A stretch of 33,870 nt of DNA from NCBI GenBank assembly GCA_005790605.1, contig SXUI01000029.1, positions 1-33,870 on the forward strand, in the 5' to 3' direction. A program made the translations under genes and the position numbers. Positions 3,611 through 27,391 of the stretch are shown here, one piece after another; position 1 is the stretch's first letter; the number at the start of each line of letters is the position of its first letter. The notes beneath the pieces are model-generated. The model was not told the DNA's origin. It did no database searches and was given only the letters and a program-made list of their open reading frames with translations. Source of the stretch: Planctomycetia bacterium. GTDB taxonomy: Bacteria; Planctomycetota; Phycisphaerae; Phycisphaerales; SM1A02.

Positions 3611-4630
3611 ATGAGGATTGGTGTCGATGTGATGGGCGGCGACAACGCCCCAGACGAGATCCTGAAGGGCAGCTTCGCATCACTCGCGAAGTTGGAACCT
3701 GGTGATGCACTCGTCCTCTTGGGTGACGAACCAATCATTCGGGATGCGATGCGAGAGCGTCGGATTCAAGACCCTCGCATCGAGATTGTGCACTGCTCCG
3801 AAGTCATCGGGATGGATGAATCACCGGTCGAGGCAGTCCGATCAAAGCCTGATAGCTCCATCAATCGCGCGGCAAAGATGGCAGGTCCGCGGCACGAGCA
3901 GCGCTTAGATGCCTGGATCAGCGCGGGCAACACCGGCGCGTGCGTCGCAGCAAGTCAGCTGTACATGCGGCGACTCCCGAATGTCGTTCGACCTGGCATT
4001 GCCGTTGTCGTCCCGACATTCGCTGGCCCGATTGTCCTCATCGATGTCGGTGCCAACATTGATCCGAAGCCTGTGCATCTCGCGCAATACGGCGTGATGG
4101 GCGACGCATACGCGCGCGGCATTCTCGGCATCGGGAATCCACGCGTCGCAATCATGAATGTTGGCGGCGAAGAAGCGAAAGGTACGGACGGCATGAAGCT
4201 CGCTCGCGAGCTCCTCCGCAAATCCGACAATCTCAACTTCATTGGATTCGTCGAAGGCCGCGGCGTGTTTGATGGCGAAGCAGACGTCGTCGTGACGGAC
4301 GGTGTTGTTGGCAATGTCATGCTCAAACTCGCCGAGGGCTTGAGCGCCGGCATCTTCAAAGCCATCGCCCGAGAGGTGCTCGAAATCGATCCTGAACTCG
4401 CGGTGCGATTCGAGCCCGTCGTGAAAAGCATTTACTCCAAGCACGACTACCACGAGTACGGCGGTGCGCCACTCTTAGGTGTGAATGGATGCTGCCTCAT
4501 CGCCCACGGCTCAAGCATCGCGCGCACAATCATGAACGCCGTGCATCGCGCGCGTCAGTACGCCGCAAGTGGTCTCAATGAGATCATCAATCAACGGCTC
4601 GAATCGATTCAGGAACCTGCCGCCTCATGA
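3611..4630 (+). CDS. plsX: Phosphate acyltransferase PlsX
   Basis: PlsX converts acyl-ACP and phosphate into acyl-phosphate, the donor for PlsY in phosphatidic acid synthesis; it is a peripheral membrane enzyme. The product is 339 residues, normal for the family. Motifs seen are GVDVMGGDNAP at the N-terminus, SAGNTGA, IDVGANIDPKP, NVGGEEAKGTDG, GFVEGRGVFDGEADVVVTDG and the C-terminal GGAPLLGVNG. The ATG at 3611 is used because it begins the conserved MRIGVDVMGG; a TTG at 3560 would add 17 unrelated residues. Its stop overlaps the fabH start by four bases (ATGA), so the two are translationally coupled. Confidence 0.98.
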   Translation: MRIGVDVMGGDNAPDEILKGSFASLAKLEPGDALVLLGDEPIIRDAMRERRIQDPRIEIVHCSEVIGMDESPVEAVRSKPDSSINRAAKMAGPRHEQRLDAWISAGNTGACVAASQLYMRRLPNVVRPGIAVVVPTFAGPIVLIDVGANIDPKPVHLAQYGVMGDAYARGILGIGNPRVAIMNVGGEEAKGTDGMKLARELLRKSDNLNFIGFVEGRGVFDGEADVVVTDGVVGNVMLKLAEGLSAGIFKAIAREVLEIDPELAVRFEPVVKSIYSKHDYHEYGGAPLLGVNGCCLIAHGSSIARTIMNAVHRARQYAASGLNEIINQRLESIQEPAAS

Positions 4631-5631
4631 ACGCCAGCTCTCTGTGTGGCGTGCGCATTCTCGGCACGGGTTCGAGCGTGCCCGAGCGCCGACTCACGAA
4701 CGCTGATTTCGAAAAGATGCTTGACACGAGCGATGAGTGGATCACGCAGCGCACAGGCATTCGTGAACGACGGGTGCTTGACCTTGACAAAGCCAGCGGG
4801 CTCACCCTCGCGCGCGCGGCGCTGCAAAATGCGCTCGATGCTGCACAGGTGCCTGCGAAGGAGCTTGATCTCGTCATCTGCGCGACAGTGACCGCAGACA
4901 TGACCTGCCCTTCCACTTCGGCGCGGATCGCGTCGGATGTGGGTGCGGCTGGCGCGGCGGCGTTTGATGTGGGCGCCGCTTGCTCGGGATTTGTCTACGC
5001 GATCAATCTCGCGGATTCCATTGTTCGCTGCGGTCGCGCGCGAACCGTCGCAGTAGTCGGCGTGGATGCGATGACAAGCATCATCGACTACTCCGATCGC
5101 ACATGTTCCATTCTGTTTGGTGACGCCGCAGGCGCTGTGATTCTTCGCGCCGATGACAATCCTGCGATCGGATGCCTCTATCAACACATGGGCGCGGACG
5201 GAACGGGATGGGGCTCGCTCTACATCCCGCGCCAAGCGCGCGACATCCCGGCGGCAGACATCGAGAACAAGACGCGACTCGGCTGCCTGCGCATGAACGG
5301 CAAAGAGGTCTTCAAGTTTGCGGTCACCAAGTTCCGCGAAGTGATCGAAGACGCACTGCTCAAGACGAATCTCTCGCCTGATCAAGTCAGTCAGTTCGTG
5401 TGTCACCAGTCCAACATTCGGATCATCGATGCGGCGCGCGAGAAGCTTGGCCTCGATCCGTCACAGGTCTATGTGAACATCGACAAGTTTGGCAATTCCA
5501 GCGCGGGAAGCGTGCCGCTCTGCCTCGACCAACTCTGGCGCGCAGGGAAAATCACGCCAGGAAAACCGTTCGTGCTCGTCGCCTTCGGCGGCGGCTTGAC
5601 TTGGGCATCGTCCGTGTGGCGCATGCCTTAA
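4627..5631 (+). CDS. fabH: 3-oxoacyl-ACP synthase III (FabH)
   Basis: FabH starts fatty-acid synthesis by condensing an acyl-CoA, usually acetyl-CoA, with malonyl-ACP. The product has 334 residues. The catalytic triad is complete: Cys119 in VGAACSGF, His260 in CHQSNIRI and Asn290 in FGNSSAGSVPL. The N-terminal GTGSSVPE and DEWITQRTGIRER blocks and the C-terminal AFGGGLTWAS are typical. It overlaps plsX by four bases and is followed 40 bases later by fabD, all on one predicted transcript. Confidence 0.98.
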   Translation: MNASSLCGVRILGTGSSVPERRLTNADFEKMLDTSDEWITQRTGIRERRVLDLDKASGLTLARAALQNALDAAQVPAKELDLVICATVTADMTCPSTSARIASDVGAAGAAAFDVGAACSGFVYAINLADSIVRCGRARTVAVVGVDAMTSIIDYSDRTCSILFGDAAGAVILRADDNPAIGCLYQHMGADGTGWGSLYIPRQARDIPAADIENKTRLGCLRMNGKEVFKFAVTKFREVIEDALLKTNLSPDQVSQFVCHQSNIRIIDAAREKLGLDPSQVYVNIDKFGNSSAGSVPLCLDQLWRAGKITPGKPFVLVAFGGGLTWASSVWRMP

Positions 5632-5671: not shown

Positions 5672-6613
5672 ATGCAAACCGTTGTCCTCTGTCCCGGTCA
5701 AGGCGCGCAAGTCATCGGCATGGCGAAGTGGTGGTGCGAGTCAAACGCGCACGCGCGCTCGACATTCGAAACCGCTGACGCAATCTTCGAGCAAAGCGGA
5801 CATGCGACATCGCTTTCTACAATCGCCTGGAACGGGCCAGCAGAGCTATTGCATCGCACCGATGTCAGTCAGCCCGCGCTCTACACCGCCGGTATCGCCT
5901 GCGCACGAGCCTTGGGCAACGACGCCTTCGGATCGATGCTCGCGATCTCGGGTCTTTCCCTCGGCGAGTACACCGCGTTGCACCTCGCCGGTGCCTTCAG
6001 CTTTGAGGATGGGCTGCGACTGGTGATTGAGCGCGGCCGCTTGATGCAGGCGGCGGCAGAAGCGTCGAAGGGGGGAATGATTGCGCTCATCGGCGCTGAT
6101 GAGGCAAGCGCACAAGCGGTATGCGATGAAGCGAGCCAGGGAGAAGTGCTCGTCCCTGCGAACTACAACGCGCCCGGGCAGATCGTTCTGAGCGGCCACG
6201 CATCAGCGTGCGCGAGAGCGAATTCGATCGCGTCGGAGAAGGGACTTCGAGCCGCGGTCTTGACGGTCGCGGGAGCGTTTCACAGTCCCCTCATGCAGCC
6301 CGCGGCAGCAGGGATGGAGACAGCGTTGGCCAAGACGCAGTTCTCGCCCCTGAAGGGAGAAGTTTGGTCCAATGTGACGGCTCAACCGCACAATTCTGCC
6401 GATCTTGATCTCATTCGCAAGAGACTCGTGGAACAGCTTGTTTCCCCTGTACGATGGAGTCAGAGTTGCGCGAATCTCATCGCGTCCCTCAACTCGCGAA
6501 ACCTTCGCGAAGGTACGGTTTTCCACGAACTCGCCCCTGGCACCGTGCTGAGGGGACTCATGAAGCGCATTGATCGCGCGACCGAGGTACTAAGTCATGA
6601 TCAACCCGCATAA
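5672..6613 (+). CDS. fabD: Malonyl-CoA:ACP transacylase (FabD)
   Basis: FabD moves malonyl groups from CoA to ACP. The 313-residue product shows the N-terminal oxyanion motif PGQGAQ, the nucleophile Ser96 in GLSLGEY and the catalytic His204 in GAFHSPLM. It is cytoplasmic. The coding region overlaps the start of the following lipoprotein gene by 17 bases, which suggests co-translation. Confidence 0.97.
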   Translation: MQTVVLCPGQGAQVIGMAKWWCESNAHARSTFETADAIFEQSGHATSLSTIAWNGPAELLHRTDVSQPALYTAGIACARALGNDAFGSMLAISGLSLGEYTALHLAGAFSFEDGLRLVIERGRLMQAAAEASKGGMIALIGADEASAQAVCDEASQGEVLVPANYNAPGQIVLSGHASACARANSIASEKGLRAAVLTVAGAFHSPLMQPAAAGMETALAKTQFSPLKGEVWSNVTAQPHNSADLDLIRKRLVEQLVSPVRWSQSCANLIASLNSRNLREGTVFHELAPGTVLRGLMKRIDRATEVLSHDQPA

Positions 6614-7409
6614 CAATCTCTACAAGCAAGGCGCAGTCTCGCGTTCGTTGCGGCGCTCCGTGCTGATGACCGCTTCGATCGCGACGCTCGTCGTTGCATC
6701 GATTGGTGGCTGCAGTGATCCTCCGCCGCCTCCACCACCACCCATCGCGGTTGCTCCTCCGCCGCCACCTCCACCAGCGTTAACTCCGATCTCGGAGTTG
6801 ATGGCGCGCTACAACATCGATCCACGCGTGTCGCTTGCTGAGGACCGCGCACCGGATACCGATCCACAACGCATCGCTGTGCTGCAGTTCTTCGACGCGA
6901 TTGTTCGTGGCAATGTGAGCGCATTGACGCCGATGCTCTCGCCGCCTGATCAGTATCAGCTCGAGCAACTCGCCTCAACAAACGCTTTCGAAGAACTCGC
7001 GAAGTCCATCTCGAAGTGTGATGTTCGATGCGGCGCGCATGAGACCGACTTCTGCACGCTCGCCGTCTTTACGATCGGCGAAAACTTCCAGCCGCAACTT
7101 TGGGTCTATACCGTCGGTGACTCGTCAGCCGAGTTCGATTCCGTCGCAACACCGATCAAAGTGCTCGACAAGTTGAGCGGCTCTGATTGGATCACCGCGT
7201 GGTACAAGCTGCTCTCCGACGAGCAAGCACTCGCGCAGAAGCCAGATGAAGTCATCGAGGCGCCGTCGCAAGATCTCACGCAGGAAGCAACCGCTGAGAG
7301 TTCGTCGGCACCGGAAGCTGCGCCAGGCGTTCCTGGTGGAATGCCCGGAAAGCGCACTCCTGGAGCGCCAATCGGCGCACCGCGACCACCGGGTTTCGGA
7401 ACCAAGTGA
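6597..7409 (+). CDS. Proline-rich lipoprotein of unknown function
   Basis: I do not recognise a named family. The 270-residue product has a basic N-terminus, a hydrophobic stretch (about 22-36) and a lipobox ASIGGC with Cys39 as the predicted lipidated residue. A poly-proline linker (about 42-60, two runs of seven to eight Pro) leads into a folded-looking domain (about 62-215) containing four Cys (SKCDVRCG, DFCTLAV) and LQFFDAIVRGNV. The tail is low-complexity, rich in Pro, Gly and Ala. An ATG at 6666 would shorten the n-region but keep the lipobox. It overlaps fabD by 17 bases and ends just before a strong terminator, so it is the last gene of the rpmF-plsX-fabH-fabD transcript. A link to envelope synthesis is inferred from position only. 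Confidence 0.8.
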   Translation: MINPHNNLYKQGAVSRSLRRSVLMTASIATLVVASIGGCSDPPPPPPPPIAVAPPPPPPPALTPISELMARYNIDPRVSLAEDRAPDTDPQRIAVLQFFDAIVRGNVSALTPMLSPPDQYQLEQLASTNAFEELAKSISKCDVRCGAHETDFCTLAVFTIGENFQPQLWVYTVGDSSAEFDSVATPIKVLDKLSGSDWITAWYKLLSDEQALAQKPDEVIEAPSQDLTQEATAESSSAPEAAPGVPGGMPGKRTPGAPIGAPRPPGFGTK

Positions 7410-7460
7410 TCGAGCGAGTTGTCGCTGCGGCGACGGTTCGTGAACAAGTCTGTACTCCAA

Positions 7461-7487
7461 CGAGCCCGCCTTCGCGGGCTCGTTTTT
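7461..7487 (+). terminator. Strong intrinsic terminator after the fabD-lipoprotein unit
   Basis: A perfect nine-base-pair GC-rich stem (CGAGCCCGC / GCGGGCTCG) with loop CTTC is followed directly by TTTTT. It splits the fatty-acid cluster, so fabG and the genes after it probably need their own promoter within 7488-7588. Confidence 0.93.
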
Positions 7488-7588
7488 CATCAACCGCGTC
7501 TGAGCGACCAACGCCAATCCTGTACATTTCCTCGGTCTTGTCGATTGCACCTTCGCCCTCGCGGTGACTCAACTTCAAAGGGATTCCC

Positions 7589-8323
7589 ATTAACCAGCGC
7601 GTAGCTATCGTGACCGGAGCGAGCCGAGGCATCGGCCGCGCGATCGCCCTCAAACTTGCCCAAGACGGCAACCATGTCGTCCTCGTCGCCCGCTCTCAAG
7701 GTGGGCTTGAAACAGTTGCCGCAGAAATCACGGCGAGCGGCGGCTCCGCCGAATGCCATGCGTGCGACCTCGCGGATTGCACCGCGTACGCCGCCCTCGT
7801 CGAGCAGATCTCTGAGAAGCACGGTCGACTCGACATTCTTGTGAACAACGCTGGCATTACCAAGGATGGCCTTGCGATGCGGATGAGCGATGAGGACTTC
7901 GACGCTGTCATCAATGTGAACTTGAAGAGCGTCTTCGTTGGCTGTCGCGCAGCGCTCCGCCCCATGATGCGAGCAAGGTTTGGGCGCATCATCAACATCG
8001 GCAGCATCTCTGGGATCACCGGGAACGCCGGCCAAGCGAACTACGCTGCTGCAAAGGCGGCGCTTGCCGGGCTCAGCAAGACCCTCGCGAAAGAGATGGG
8101 CGCCAAGTCCATCACCTGCAATGTCGTTGCACCCGGCTTCATTGAGACAGATATGACCGAAGCGCTCGGCGAAAAGATCAAAGAGCAGATCCTTCCATCC
8201 ATCCCGCTTCGACGGCTTGGGAAGCCCGATGACATCGCTGCGACGGTCGCCTTCCTCGCAAGCGACAGCGCGGGTTATCTGACCGGACAGGTCATTGTTG
8301 TCGACGGAGGTCTTTCTTGCTGA
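7589..8323 (+). CDS. fabG: 3-oxoacyl-ACP reductase (FabG), apparent ATT start
   Basis: FabG reduces 3-oxoacyl-ACP with NADPH. Family motifs are the Rossmann TGASRGIG, NNAG, and the catalytic Ser139, Tyr152 and Lys156 (GSISG, NYAAAK). The first standard start in frame is a GTG at 7610, which would delete the first beta strand (QRVAIV) needed for the NADP fold. In-frame codons upstream encode N-Q-R-V-A-I-V-T-G, matching the family, and are bounded by a TGA at 7565. No ATG, GTG or TTG lies between them. An ATT at 7589 has AAAGGGA five bases upstream and gives 244 residues, the same length as E. coli FabG. I therefore place the start there. ATT initiation is inferred and a sequencing error cannot be excluded. 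The gene follows the terminator at 7461-7487. Confidence 0.9.
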   Translation: MNQRVAIVTGASRGIGRAIALKLAQDGNHVVLVARSQGGLETVAAEITASGGSAECHACDLADCTAYAALVEQISEKHGRLDILVNNAGITKDGLAMRMSDEDFDAVINVNLKSVFVGCRAALRPMMRARFGRIINIGSISGITGNAGQANYAAAKAALAGLSKTLAKEMGAKSITCNVVAPGFIETDMTEALGEKIKEQILPSIPLRRLGKPDDIAATVAFLASDSAGYLTGQVIVVDGGLSC

Positions 8324-8447
8324 ACGCGCGAGAGCGCCTCGGTTACGCTGCGTGTCCTGGTAACTGAAACACCCCGATTAACCCCCTTTCCACTATCATT
8401 TCTCCCCCGGCGACGCGGTGCGTTGCCCAAATTCAGAGGAGCTTTCC

Positions 8448-8705
8448 GTGACTGACGCTGAGATTGAGAAAAAGGTGATTGAACTCGTTGCCCAGAACCT
8501 GAACAAGGATGCTGAGCTCATCTCGAAGGAATCGAGTTTCACCAACGACCTCGACGCCGACAGCCTCGATATTGTCGAGCTGCTTATGGCGTTCGAAGAA
8601 GAATTCGAAACCAAGATCCCAGAAGAGCAGGCCGAGAAAATTCATACGGTTGGGCAAGCGATCGACTTCATCAAGTCGGCGATGCATGCCAAGACCGGCA
8701 ACTAA
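8448..8705 (+). CDS. acpP: Acyl carrier protein
   Basis: An 85-residue acidic helical protein. Ser39 in DLDADSLD is the predicted 4'-phosphopantetheine attachment site, followed by the recognition helix IVELLMAFEEEF. The GTG at 8448 is chosen because AGAGGAG lies six bases upstream; an upstream GTG at 8418 would add ten unlikely residues. It carries growing acyl chains for fabD, fabG and fabF, which flank it. The region 8324-8447 upstream has no coding signal. Confidence 0.95.
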   Translation: MTDAEIEKKVIELVAQNLNKDAELISKESSFTNDLDADSLDIVELLMAFEEEFETKIPEEQAEKIHTVGQAIDFIKSAMHAKTGN

Positions 8706-8759
8706 CGAAACGCATCCTGCGTGCCACCCTTTACCGCGCCCGCGCAACAGGGGTCCTCT

Positions 8760-9014
8760 GTGACCGAAACGGAGATCGAAGCCAAGGTTCTTCAGTTGGT
8801 CGCTGACCAGCTTGGTGTTCCACGCTCCGAGGTGACCCGCGAAAGCGAGTTCGACAAGCTCGGCGACAGCCTCGACAAGACCGAACTGATGATGGCGTTC
8901 GAAGACGCGTTTGATGTTTCGATCCCAGACGAGACCGCTGCGAGCGTGCAAACCATCAGCGATGCGATCGTGCTCATCCGAGAGTACATCCCAGCAAAGC
9001 AGGCTGAAGTTTGA
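8760..9014 (+). CDS. Second, divergent acyl carrier protein
   Basis: An 84-residue ACP homologue directly after acpP. The predicted phosphopantetheine Ser is in KLGDSLDKTELMMAFED. Against the usual LGADSLD the residue between Gly and Asp-Ser is missing, and an Asp-Lys-Thr follows the Ser. The GTG at 8760 is preceded by CAGGGG at suitable spacing; a GTG at 8721 would add 13 residues. It lies between acpP and fabF, so it could be paired with FabF or with a specialised acyl product. I cannot tell which from sequence. The hydrophobic and acidic pattern of helix II is kept, so it looks functional. Confidence 0.9.
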   Translation: MTETEIEAKVLQLVADQLGVPRSEVTRESEFDKLGDSLDKTELMMAFEDAFDVSIPDETAASVQTISDAIVLIREYIPAKQAEV

Positions 9015-9035: not shown

Positions 9036-10304
9036 ATGAACAGGTCCCCGCGAACCATCACGCTTCGGCGAGTCGTCGTTACAGGCATGGGTGCACTGAC
9101 GGACCTCGCGCTCACTGCCCCGAAGACTTGGGAGGCGATGAAGGAGGGCGCGAATGGCGTCGACACGATCACTGCATTCTCGATGCCTTCCGACTGGCCG
9201 GTTCGATTTGCGGGGCAATTGAAGGACTGGGATCCGGCGCCACTCATTGATTTCAAAGAACAGAAGCGCATGGATCGTTTCGCGATGATGGCGATTGCCG
9301 CGTCGGATGAAGCGGTTCGCGATTGCGGCTTCGACTTTGGAACAGGCGACCCATACCGCCACGGCGTGATGATCGGATCGGGCGTCGGCGGAATCCTCTC
9401 GACAGAAGAGTCTCACGGGAAACTCTTGCAAGGCGGCGTGCGGCGCGTCAGCCCATTCACCGTGCCGCGGCTGATGGTGAACGCAGGTGCAGGTCAGGTT
9501 TCGATTCGATTCAACCTCCGCGGACCAAATGCCGCCACCGCGACTGCGTGCGCTTCAAGCGGGCACGCGATCGGTGCGGCGTATCACGCGATTCAGCGCG
9601 GCGATGCAGATCTGATTTTGGCAGGTGGGAGCGAAGCCGCCGTCGGTCAGCTTTGCATCGGTACTTTCGCTGCAATGAAGGCACTCTCGACGCGCAACGA
9701 CGAACCGAAGCTCGCATCGCGGCCCTTCGACAAGGATCGAGATGGCTTCGTGCTCGCGGAAGGCGCGGCGGTCTTGGTTCTCGAAGACCTTGAACACGCG
9801 AACGCGCGTGGTGCGCGGATCTACGCGGAAGTAGTCGGATACGGCGTTTGTGGGGATGCGTATCACATCGCTGCGCCGGATGAACAGGGCTCAGGCGCGT
9901 TCATGGCGATGAAGTTTGCGCTTCGTGACGCCCAGTTGAACACGACGGATGTGGACTACATCAATGCGCACGGCACCTCAACCCCGCTCGGTGATGCTGC
10001 AGAAGTTGCCTCCGTCAAGCGGCTCTTCGGCGACCATGCGTACAAACTTTGCATGAGCAGCACGAAATCCATGACCGGACACGGGCTTGGCGCAGCTGGC
10101 GGCATCGAGAGCATCGCGTCGATCATGGCTGTTGTAGAAGGCGTAGCGCCTCCAACCATCAATCTTGACCACCCGGACGAAGGCTTCGATCTCAATTTCG
10201 CGGCCAAGACGGCGCAGGAGCGCCCCACGCGCATCGCGCTGAACAACACTTTCGGTTTCGGCGGCCACAATGTCAGCCTCTGTTTCGCTCGATTTGAGGG
10301 CTGA
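9036..10304 (+). CDS. fabF: 3-oxoacyl-ACP synthase II (FabF-type)
   Basis: The elongating condensing enzyme: it joins acyl-ACP to malonyl-ACP with loss of CO2. The product has 422 residues. The Cys-His-His triad is intact: Cys172 in TACASSGHAIG, His312 in NAHGTSTPLGD and His349 in KSMTGHGLGAAG. The C-terminal NNTFGFGGHN loop, which gates the site, is present. The N-terminus RRVVVTGMGALTDLA is close to the canonical form but has DLA where GxxTPLG is common, and the insert around residues 44-60 is slightly unusual. It starts 21 bases after the second ACP, and a short direct repeat AAGTTTGAG occurs twice around its start region. Confidence 0.96.
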   Translation: MNRSPRTITLRRVVVTGMGALTDLALTAPKTWEAMKEGANGVDTITAFSMPSDWPVRFAGQLKDWDPAPLIDFKEQKRMDRFAMMAIAASDEAVRDCGFDFGTGDPYRHGVMIGSGVGGILSTEESHGKLLQGGVRRVSPFTVPRLMVNAGAGQVSIRFNLRGPNAATATACASSGHAIGAAYHAIQRGDADLILAGGSEAAVGQLCIGTFAAMKALSTRNDEPKLASRPFDKDRDGFVLAEGAAVLVLEDLEHANARGARIYAEVVGYGVCGDAYHIAAPDEQGSGAFMAMKFALRDAQLNTTDVDYINAHGTSTPLGDAAEVASVKRLFGDHAYKLCMSSTKSMTGHGLGAAGGIESIASIMAVVEGVAPPTINLDHPDEGFDLNFAAKTAQERPTRIALNNTFGFGGHNVSLCFARFEG

Positions 10305-24605: not shown

Positions 24606-25511
24606 TCAATGCTCCTCAATTCGTAGGAACGACGCGATCGGCAGTGCGCGCTCGATCGTCTCGTCGGCACTCCCGACGCTTGCAGCAAGATCGATTGGAA
24701 GCACGCGCCCCTGCGCGTGATCGGTCGCAAGGGTCACCAAGTCTCGAAATGGCGCGCTCGCCCCATCCGGCACATGCATATGCCCGATGACGAAGAGCTT
24801 CGCTCCCCACTCCGCCGCCAAGCGGTGAAGCGAATCGATCGAGTGCCCGCGGCCCCAAGTCATGAGAAACGCGGCGCCAAATGGTCCTTCGTAATCAGCC
24901 TCGACGAGGTCACGCTCCACGACGCTGAAATCGAAGTGATCGAGGTGCGCTTCGCCGGGAAGCGAGTGCGAGAAAAACAGTCCTCCCTCAGTTCGAACCG
25001 CAATCGGCATCGCCGCGATGAATGCGTGAAGCGCCTCTTCGACGGCAGAGGCGTCATCTCCAAAGACCCACTCAAGGCCAGCGCTGAACTTCGCAGTTTG
25101 GTCCCCGCCACCTTTACTTACGCCATGCCCGCGATACTGCGAGAGCTCATGATTGGCAAGGACTGGATGCACTTGATCGGGATACGCGAGCACTAATTCG
25201 GCCACGCGCCCGAGCATTTGAAAGGACATGTCAAGGCCGTTCACCAATCGATCGCCATGGATGAGTTCATGAAGGACGACATGGTGATCAGGGTTTCGAT
25301 CGAGCCGAGCGAGATCGCAAACCGCTTCGAAATGTGGCAAGTTGTCGTGCAGGTCACCCGTCAGGAGCAACCGACCTGTCGCCGGGAGCGCAATGCAAGA
25401 TTGCTTGCGCCAACGACCCGCGCGAAGCCTTCCTGTTGCCTCCTCAAGCAGCGCACAGATCGCCTCAGCGTTTCGCATCCACGCGCGCCGTCGCCCGTCG
25501 ATCGCGCTCAT
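24606..25511 (-). CDS. Calcineurin-like metallophosphoesterase
   Basis: A 301-residue enzyme with the ordered metal-binding motifs of the family: GDLHDN (about 52), HELIHGDRL (about 81), a variant of GNHE reading LANHEL (about 117), FFSHS (about 180) and GHMHVP (about 245). The substrate cannot be read from sequence; Ser/Thr phosphatases, nucleotidases and diadenosine hydrolases share this fold. No signal peptide is present. Its start overlaps the DUF1573 gene stop by four bases (ATGA), and tsaB follows after three bases, so the three form an operon. Confidence 0.88.
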   Translation of the reverse strand: MSAIDGRRRAWMRNAEAICALLEEATGRLRAGRWRKQSCIALPATGRLLLTGDLHDNLPHFEAVCDLARLDRNPDHHVVLHELIHGDRLVNGLDMSFQMLGRVAELVLAYPDQVHPVLANHELSQYRGHGVSKGGGDQTAKFSAGLEWVFGDDASAVEEALHAFIAAMPIAVRTEGGLFFSHSLPGEAHLDHFDFSVVERDLVEADYEGPFGAAFLMTWGRGHSIDSLHRLAAEWGAKLFVIGHMHVPDGASAPFRDLVTLATDHAQGRVLPIDLAASVGSADETIERALPIASFLRIEEH

Positions 25512-26572
25512 TTCGTGGCGCTTTCCGTTGCGAGCAGCGTGAATGGAACCCGCCCACTGCCGGTTGCGGTCGTGATTTCGAGTTCGCCTTCGATCGGACC
25601 AACCGCAGCGGCGATCGGCTCGAGTTTCACAGTGAGTGTCGCACCGTCCGTTCCATGGGGTGTCGCTGAAACAAGCGTCGCGACAACCGACGGCGTGAGC
25701 GATCGCACCGATTGAACTTCGCGGAATCGCGCATTCGTCACCTGCCCGCGCATCGGCGGGTTGTAGTGCTCAAGGTCTATCGTCACGACAGCAGCCTTGC
25801 CGACGGATGCGAATTCGGCGTCAACGAGTTGGTCCTTCACGATCCAGAATCGAGCATGCCGAGCGGCATCTGCCTTTGATCCGGTGCACTCATCGCGCAC
25901 GCGAAGAGGAATCGACGGACACGTCGGATGATCGGTAAACACGAACCACCAGAGCGGCATTTGCTCACACGATTTCCCGGAAAGATCCCACAGCAGCGTG
26001 TACTCAGCGCGAGGCTCATCGGCTTTGGGGTCGAAGCCCAAGTAAGCGGGGTCCTTTCCACCCGATCGGAGGATGCGAAATGGCTTTCCATCTTTCGATC
26101 GCAGCTTGACAACGCCTCGCACATTCTCCTTGAGCGCGTCGCAGTACGGCGGCTCCGCAATCACCGGAAACTGCACATCACCCTTGATTGCTGCCGTCAC
26201 TGGAGGAACCTGACCCTCGAAGAGGATCGTGACCTTTGCCTCCTTCTCACCCGGCGCGCGCGGTGCTTTCAGTGAAGCATCAAGTCCAAGCGTTCCACCC
26301 GGAGCGATGACCTTCCCGGAAACATCTGAGATGTCGGTGCACTTGCAGTTGGGGAGCGCGGCCTTCACCGTCAACGACTGATTGGTGAGATTGCGAATCA
26401 CGAAGTGTGCAGGATGAAGTGACGCGGGCTCGATCGCTCCAAGTTCCACGACTGCGGGTTCGACGACAGCGGCCGCGCGCGCGGAGCTTGCAGGACCTTG
26501 CTGAGCATGCAGGGGTGCCGCAGCGGCAAGAACGAGTACACAGAGTGAAGAAAGAGAGACTCGCGAAAGCAT
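25508..26572 (-). CDS. Secreted DUF1573-domain protein
   Basis: A 354-residue protein with a signal peptide (LSSLCVLVLAAAAPLHA, predicted cut before QQG). Residues about 38-140 fit DUF1573, an Ig-like (HYDIN-type) fold: VVELGAIEPASLHPAHFVIR, then LPNCKCTDISD with its CxC, and VTILFEGQVPPVTAAIKGDV. A second, less conserved part has four further Cys (PPYCDA, SCEQMP, TCPSIP, DECTG). Such proteins are frequent in planctomycetes and Bacteroidetes; the function is unknown. The ATG at 26572 begins the signal peptide; a longer open frame upstream is antisense to terC and was rejected. It leads an operon with the metallophosphoesterase and tsaB. Confidence 0.88.
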   Translation of the reverse strand: MLSRVSLSSLCVLVLAAAAPLHAQQGPASSARAAAVVEPAVVELGAIEPASLHPAHFVIRNLTNQSLTVKAALPNCKCTDISDVSGKVIAPGGTLGLDASLKAPRAPGEKEAKVTILFEGQVPPVTAAIKGDVQFPVIAEPPYCDALKENVRGVVKLRSKDGKPFRILRSGGKDPAYLGFDPKADEPRAEYTLLWDLSGKSCEQMPLWWFVFTDHPTCPSIPLRVRDECTGSKADAARHARFWIVKDQLVDAEFASVGKAAVVTIDLEHYNPPMRGQVTNARFREVQSVRSLTPSVVATLVSATPHGTDGATLTVKLEPIAAAVGPIEGELEITTATGSGRVPFTLLATESATK

Positions 26573-26650
26573 GCCTAGAGTGTACGCTTCCCCCCACTCG
26601 CGGCTGCGCGCAGATCTTTCTCCGTTCGCGCCGCACTCCAGTCGACCACT

Positions 26651-27391
26651 ATGGACATCGCCACACTCTTCTCGACAGAGAACATTCTCGCCCTCGCCAC
26701 GTTGACCATGCTCGAGATCGTGCTCGGCGTCGACAATGTCGTCTTCATCGCAGTCTTGAGCGGTCGACTGCCGGAATCTAAGCAAAAGAGCGCACGCCGC
26801 CTCGGCCTCATCGCCGCAATGGGCATGCGCATCCTGCTTCTTCTCTCGATCACATGGGTGATGAGCCTGAAAGAAGAACTGCTCGCCTTCAACGCGTATG
26901 GACACGATCTCAGCTTCTCCGCCAAGGACCTTATCCTGATCGGCGGCGGCGCGCTCCTGATCGTCAAGGCAGTCCGCGAGATTCACCATCTCGTGGCTGC
27001 AACCGATGAGCAACATGCCGGCGCAAAGCACGCTTCGTTCACAGCCGTGATTATTCAGATCACGATCATGGACATCATCTTTTCGCTCGACTCCGTGATC
27101 ACCGCGGTCGGCATGGCTGAAAGCGTGAGCATCATGGTCATCGCAGTCGTACTCAGTGTCGCGGTCATGATGGTCGCGGCTGAACCGATTTCAGCGTTCG
27201 TGCAGCGCCGCCGTTCACTCAAGATGTTGGCGCTCACTTTCCTTGTGCTCATCGGCACCATGCTCGTCGCAGATGGATTCGGCCAACATGTGTCGAAGGG
27301 CTACATCTACTTCGCGATGGCCTTCGGACTCGGTGTCGAGTGCCTGAACATCGCGGGCGACAAGATCCGCGCGAGAGTCTCGCGCTCGTGA
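26651..27391 (+). CDS. TerC-family integral membrane protein
   Basis: A 246-residue TerC/YkoY/YgdQ-type protein with about seven membrane helices. Signature segments with membrane-embedded acidic residues are seen: LEIVLGVDNVVFIAVLSGRL and MDIIFSLDSVITAVGM. Family members export or metallate with Mn2+ (Alx, MeeF/YkoY) or are linked to tellurite resistance. The upstream gap of 78 bases is too short for a yybP-ykoY riboswitch and shows none. The C-terminal Ser-Arg-Ser codons and the stop lie inside structured repeat copy B. It is divergent from the DUF1573 operon. Confidence 0.93.
   Translation: MDIATLFSTENILALATLTMLEIVLGVDNVVFIAVLSGRLPESKQKSARRLGLIAAMGMRILLLLSITWVMSLKEELLAFNAYGHDLSFSAKDLILIGGGALLIVKAVREIHHLVAATDEQHAGAKHASFTAVIIQITIMDIIFSLDSVITAVGMAESVSIMVIAVVLSVAVMMVAAEPISAFVQRRRSLKMLALTFLVLIGTMLVADGFGQHVSKGYIYFAMAFGLGVECLNIAGDKIRARVSRS

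Follow-up and report, generated by a model that had tools for sequence, protein, structure and literature searches.

Conserved AUH codon as the probable start of fabG in a family of planctomycetes, with a possible role in attenuating FabG synthesis

The textbook gene with an AUH start codon is infC, which encodes IF3; pcnB, a second gene of this kind, encodes poly(A) polymerase. In E. coli infC starts at ATT and in Streptomyces at ATC, and it is autoregulated by IF3 (PMC5472188). The same source describes Streptomyces sigR, whose GTC start is repressed by IF3, with SigR held below its partner; this start is conserved in the clade, 32 of 34 genes having GTC and 2 GTT (PMC5472188). The AUU start of E. 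coli pcnB limits expression (Binns and Masters 2002, cited in PMC1780047). Conserved AUH codons with strong Shine-Dalgarno (SD) sequences are described for ccpN (AUA; S. aureus and B. subtilis) and cvfC1 (AUU; S. aureus), and in S. aureus reporters conserved AUH codons gave about 10% of the AUG level in poor medium, ccpN reaching up to 30% in rich medium (PMC13009471). In a reconstituted system IF3 promoted strong third-base pairs, and weak pairs, AUU/CAU among those tested, gave little product (PMC10158994). Few natural AUH starts outside infC are documented in the literature covered.

The fabG gene described here lies in a stretch of 33,870 nucleotides, the window. It shares with infC a conserved AUH codon preceded by an SD sequence, an arrangement that infC also shows within the genome and the order of the window. 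The difference is that infC feeds back on itself through IF3, whereas fabG codes for a fatty-acid enzyme, so that any control by IF3 would run one way. Like sigR as described, fabG is a gene other than that of IF3 with a clade-conserved non-canonical start, and is first of a pair whose partner is, or would be, in excess. Unlike fabG, sigR has GTC and encodes a sigma factor; IF3 control and over-production with canonical starts were measured in the published work, whereas the case for fabG is built on sequence. ccpN and cvfC1 resemble fabG in their conserved AUH starts with SD sequences, and differ in encoding a metabolic repressor and a small protein of Firmicutes, in having been shown experimentally and, for ccpN, in a reported effect of medium. 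The parallel with pcnB is an AUU codon that limits expression of an enzyme gene; that work, as cited, includes no clade-wide comparison, whereas fabG was compared across its clade. Two further named cases are published in which sequence evidence by itself led to the proposal of an AUU start that would give back a protein of full length; as described, these too come with no clade-wide comparison. No earlier description of an AUH-started fabG was found in the open-licence PMC literature. On the comparisons that follow, fabG would be added to the few weak non-canonical starts known so far; for neither this gene nor this lineage did we find an earlier case.

Table 1. Positions of fabG, its start region and the neighbouring genes in the window
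Feature	Coordinates	Strand	Basis or remark
fabH	4627..5631	+	TIGR00747, 341.6 bits (cut-off 292.1)
fabD-like malonyltransferase gene	5672..6613	+	TIGR00128, 237.8 bits, below cut-off 260.9
Hypothetical gene	6597-7409		Between the fabD-like gene and fabG
Inverted repeat ACGAGCCCGC-CTTC-GCGGGCTCGT, then T	7460..7486	+	Probable terminator of upstream gene; by eye
In-frame TGA closing the fabG frame upstream	7565..7567	+	Sequence
SD-like AAAGGGA	7577..7583	+	5 bases 5′ of the fabG ATT
Start codon ATT (mostly ATC in the window's family)	7589..7591	+	Recurrence of ATH at this register
fabG, 3-oxoacyl-ACP reductase	7589..8323	+	244 codons + stop, begun at ATT
GTG, first in-frame canonical codon of fabG	7610..7612	+	Within beta-1 (RVAI-V-TG), not start
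acpP, next gene downstream of fabG	8418..8705	+	TIGR00517, 99.1 bits (cut-off 70.45), for 8448-8702
Second acyl-carrier-protein-like gene, between acpP and fabF	8721..9014	+	Assigned by eye
fabF	9036..10304	+	TIGR03150, 580.2 bits (cut-off 493.75)

The sequence-only reading had proposed that fabG begins at ATT 7589, and the positions that it gave for this codon, for TGA 7565, for AAAGGGA and for GTG 7610 are all correct. The codons following the TGA are CTC AAC TTC AAA GGG ATT CCC ATT AAC CAG CGC GTA GCT ATC GTG, with no ATG, GTG or TTG in frame between TGA 7565 and GTG 7610. The length of 244 residues from the ATT was confirmed, and the product scores 329.3 bits against NCBIfam TIGR01830, above the curated threshold of 297.75, with a match from residue 6. 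The listed solved FabG chains align with the window's FabG from query residue 1-6 onward. AAAGGGA is a weaker SD than that of the family majority; it fails a strict list of SD cores and passes only a relaxed list in which AAGG and GGGA are allowed. In G003, the sister genome, the homologous codon is ATC, and canonical starts are likewise absent.

All 41 relatives of the window in an initial search matched the FabG protein. In the larger family sample 181 genomes were searched with this protein, 162 matched at E<=1e-70, and the start region was read in 153; the nine matched genomes left unread are G061, G077, G078, G079, G151, G156, G175, G184 and G189, and loci L031, L032, L038 and L355-L358 are repeats of other loci. 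The homologous first position was taken three codons 5′ of the R in RVAIVTG. The codon at this position is ATC in 94 genomes, ATT in one (the window) and ATA in one, so that 96 of 153 genomes, in 30 genera, carry AUH. Related genomes had been named beforehand as the place to look for a recurrent ATT or for an ATG. AUH with an SD sequence does recur; the codon usually found, however, is ATC, of which the window's ATT is a variant, while ATG occupies the exact register in 13 genomes (genera g54 and g22). The remaining 44 have neither at this position. Initiation at ATT 7589 is thus strongly supported by comparison, and the presence of AUH at this register in G003 and in 96 of the family genomes indicates that the ATT is neither chance nor a sequencing slip. 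The window does come from a draft assembly of 80 contigs, which would speak for an assembly or sequencing error; recurrence across 30 genera excludes that explanation, to which we give practically no weight.

AUH starts were also scored at other registers in eight further genomes, as ATC in G016 and G118 and as ATT in G010, G174, G062, G063, G070 and G072. An SD core lies 7-8 nt upstream in seven of these eight genes, G118 having none. The family totals (n = 153) are therefore 104 AUH genes, 45 canonical genes and 4 with no assigned state.

Outside the family the picture is different. The order provided 16 genomes, of which 15 were read (G026, with only a partial distant match, was excluded), and 21 were read among 52 other genomes of the class. 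A canonical fabG start near the conserved R was found in 14 of the 15 order genomes and all 21 class genomes, or 35 of 36. The fifteenth order genome, G038 (L028), has CCCACC-like repeats before fabG and no clear start of any kind. In an independent set, made up of the best 80 matches among named FabG loci and spanning a wide range of bacteria, 79 have a canonical codon within 14 codons. The nearest other hits in this set bear the names Phycisphaeraceae and Phycisphaerae, which suggests that the window's family is Phycisphaerales-like. The sole exception among them, L219 (CAMAXY010000033.1), reads aag aag gag tat gtc ATC gaa aag. This is the fabG start of the window's family, and the record title, Singulisphaera sp. 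GP187, looks misassigned.

The placing of SD sequences was compared between the AUH codon and other sites. In 80 of the 96 genes the AUH codon is preceded by a strict SD core at a spacing of 5-9 nt (7 or 8 nt in 64 of the 80), whereas shuffling the leaders 200 times gave a mean of 9.2 genes (sd 2.5, maximum 16). The core was present at a control site 60 nt upstream in 5 of 92 genes, and ahead of the start in 13 of 13 genes with ATG in this register. The 16 AUH genes that lack a strict core include those of the window, G003, G096 and G097. When AAGG, GGGA and AGGG are allowed as well, eight of the 16 pass, namely the window, G003 and six others, two of which (G021 and G023) have the relaxed SD at 13 nt only; the remaining eight have none. 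Median SD pairing energies were −7.65 kcal/mol for the 104 AUH genes, −7.0 for the 45 canonical genes of the family and −6.5 for 35 genes outside it, a small difference calculated with kinship ignored. The slightly stronger pairing of the AUH genes fits a weak codon that is compensated.

These data also bear on the alternative that translation begins upstream, either at an in-frame canonical codon giving a longer FabG, or by frameshift from the out-of-frame GTG 7564 (MTQLQRDSH), whose reading frame overlaps the ATT in the window. A canonical codon does occur somewhere upstream in frame in 47 of the 96 AUH genes, and a start there may hold for single genomes such as G196. However, in 48 of the 96, spread over 21 genera, the open frame contains no ATG, GTG or TTG between the preceding stop and the AUH codon, which excludes an upstream start for those 48; in the one remaining gene, that of G106, the open frame reaches the end of its stretch. 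The space before the AUH codon can be very short. The stop is followed by two codons and then ATC in G096 (without an SD core), by one codon and then ATC in G114 (SD AAGGAG), and directly by ATC ATC in G089 (SD AGAGGG). Where an upstream canonical codon exists (n = 47), the nearest one has an SD in 2 genes, whereas the AUH codon has one in 42. The upstream stretch evolves as non-coding sequence, as set out below, and in G003 the overlapping frame has no stop at the corresponding place. An upstream or frameshifted start is therefore very improbable as a general explanation.

The AUH codon marks a sharp boundary in substitution pattern. In 325 within-genus pairs, aligned without gaps over 63 nt upstream and 120 nt downstream (neither the pairs nor the genomes being phylogenetically independent), mismatch by codon position was 0.56/0.55/0.54 upstream, i.e. 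non-coding, and 0.08/0.05/0.46 downstream, i.e. coding. Mismatch in the start codon itself was 0/0/0.05, as against 0.11-0.40 at the third base of codons 2-8. ATC serves as codon 1 in 94 of 96 genes, where 76.6 (sd 3.35) would be expected from each gene's Ile usage, kinship again being ignored. By this pattern of sequence change, the AUH codon of fabG is a start codon under selection.

The same boundary argues against a start at GTG 7610, the first canonical codon in frame and the point at which a mechanical list of open reading frames begins fabG. The seven codons before this GTG evolve as coding, and starting there would drop the beta-1 residues RVAI, which align with solved FabG chains. Among the AUH genes, the next canonical codon downstream lies within 7 codons in 26 of 96; the other 70 have none so near, and the median distance is 29 codons, past the TGxxxGIG motif. 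Most of the genes would thus lose their nucleotide-binding motif with a downstream start, which we consider as improbable as an upstream one.

The AUH state is nevertheless not fixed within the family. In genus g8 G173 has ATG in register with the ATT of G010 and G174, and in genus g14 the ATG of G170 is in register with the ATC of G016. The fabG tree, on which G068, G046, G057, G007 and G038 have no assigned state and whose topology is partly supported, needs about 15 changes between AUH and canonical starts. With 49 of the 153 family members not scored as AUH, this number of changes indicates that the trait is not indispensable. Such frequent switching, together with good SD pairing in both the AUH and the canonical group, would be expected if selection on the start had relaxed and the codon had drifted, AUC being used, working about as well as other starts in this clade and attenuating nothing. 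Against drift stands the constancy of codon 1, whose third base hardly varies. The other evidence against it comes from the rest of the genome, from infC and from the initiator tRNA.

A screen for AUH starts covered 293.9 kb, made up of C76 (1-160000) and C60 (1-100000) of the window's genome together with the window itself, set against stretches of three congeners. Four of 114 genes with homologues were flagged, and only fabG lacked a canonical codon within two codons; the three other flagged genes were rejected as AUH starts, each having a canonical codon one or two codons from the candidate. Because flagging requires an SD on both sides with the register unshifted, and an SD accompanied the first shared canonical codon in only 31 of the 114 genes, the screen sets a weak bound and would miss many cases. 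Within its limited sensitivity fabG is the only convincing AUH start, and AUH starts do not seem to be in general use in this genome. A frame in the window itself (25511-27190, minus strand) was rejected as a second AUH gene; it is low in complexity, rich in His and Asp, and was taken as antisense to another gene.

The gene for IF3 was found in 39 of 41 genomes, and its start resembles that of fabG in layout. For infC in the family and order, 28 of 30 loci (L159-L188) could be anchored. AUH (AUC, AUU or AUA) was present in 26 and CUG in one (G014), or 27 of the 28 readable genes, with an SD mostly 8 nt upstream; no AUH start was found in infC of G008, the remaining one of the 28. In 15 of the 28 no canonical codon lies between the stop and the conserved Asn. 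In the window's genome infC starts with ATC at L185:1444 (contig C1), after AAGGAACGGACTT. The AUH pattern of infC, known elsewhere, is thereby extended to these planctomycetes.

The window's genome gave 37 tRNA matches, none with a GAU anticodon, so that a special initiator tRNA of that kind was not seen. That genome has two Met tRNAs (CAU), neither of them initiator-like, so that the initiator tRNA is apparently missing from the draft. In relatives the initiator tRNA is ordinary: its anticodon is CAU, and its stem contains three G-C pairs. A tRNA-Met(CAU) at L205:1500-1576 of the window's genome, seen also in L324, L326, L341 and L343, carries the initiator's CATAACCCGGAGGTCG stretch; it has a paired acceptor stem and lacks the GGG of the initiator anticodon stem, and it may be an elongator or a tRNA-Ile with CAU. 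An ordinary initiator tRNA in the relatives and the presence of infC speak, with the screen and the constancy of codon 1, against drift, which we regard as unlikely.

The gene stands in a fab cluster (fabH, fabD-like, fabG, acpP and fabF), near acpP and fabF. The inverted repeat and T run upstream suggest that fabG probably opens a transcript; a pattern scan did not list this repeat, and found no match to a sigma-70-type promoter. The fabG leader gave no match of weight in Rfam (two at E 0.74 and 0.83, far below the gathering scores), and folding of the start region was no better than that of shuffled sequences (z 0.44). Of 43 AUH loci examined, 40 have an acp homologue following fabG. A different operon layout found no support as the cause of the AUH start, since the median fabG-acp gaps of AUH and canonical genes, 159.5 and 151, are alike. 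In the window the real start of acpP is probably the GTG at 8448. Beside AUH-started fabG genes, acpP has GTG at or beside the aligned start in 39 of 40 loci and TTG in G127; ATG is common outside the family. With AUH in fabG and GTG in acpP, two adjoining genes both have weaker starts.

We propose, with a probability of roughly 0.8, that the conserved AUH codon is the start of fabG, placed by its SD sequence and read by the CAU initiator tRNA, and that it attenuates FabG synthesis, possibly with an IF3-dependent component. For its position, its conservation and the exclusion of other starts this proposal draws on sequence comparison, and for attenuation and IF3 control on analogy with the systems described above. 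The throttling of fatty-acid synthesis and the response to IF3 that the sequence-only reading had suggested gain plausibility from the AUH codon and SD of infC in these genomes, from the ordinary CAU initiator tRNA of relatives and from the published cases in other bacteria. The ordinary initiator fMet tRNA would read AUH with a third-base mismatch, which IF3 would disfavour. Initiation would then be inefficient and sensitive to IF3, as in infC, pcnB, sigR and ccpN, and the codon would act as a fixed attenuator of FabG synthesis. ACP, the product of acpP, is generally required in large amounts, and a weak fabG start may allow one mRNA to yield little FabG and much ACP. More tentatively, fabG and infC might be paired through a weak AUH start common to both, with the level or activity of IF3 setting the supply of FabG; this extension is doubtful. 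If it held, IF3 would serve as a proxy for initiation capacity, membrane-lipid synthesis would be tied to translation, and a single codon would form a translational link between growth and fatty-acid synthesis. An AUH codon on a core-metabolism enzyme in 30 genera, alternating with ATG in sisters, would amount to a natural experiment on attenuation by weak starts. Gene callers limited to ATG, GTG and TTG would tend to truncate, extend or miss fabG in these genomes.

Some individual genes may be read differently from the majority. A canonical codon lies 4-12 codons before the R in 15 of the 96 AUH genes. The true start in G196 may well be an ATG four codons before the ATC, which has no SD. G023, with GTG directly before the ATC, and G015 and G090, with TTG, may also start at the canonical codon. 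In the opposite sense, fabG of G068 (ATT after GGAG, in an open frame with no canonical codon) would probably count as AUH. In genus g35 the codon is ACG in G046 (L109) and ACA in G057 (L098), and ATG in the sister G043 (L307), with the same AAGGA upstream; G046 and G057 start either at ACG and ACA or at an in-frame TTG just before the SD.
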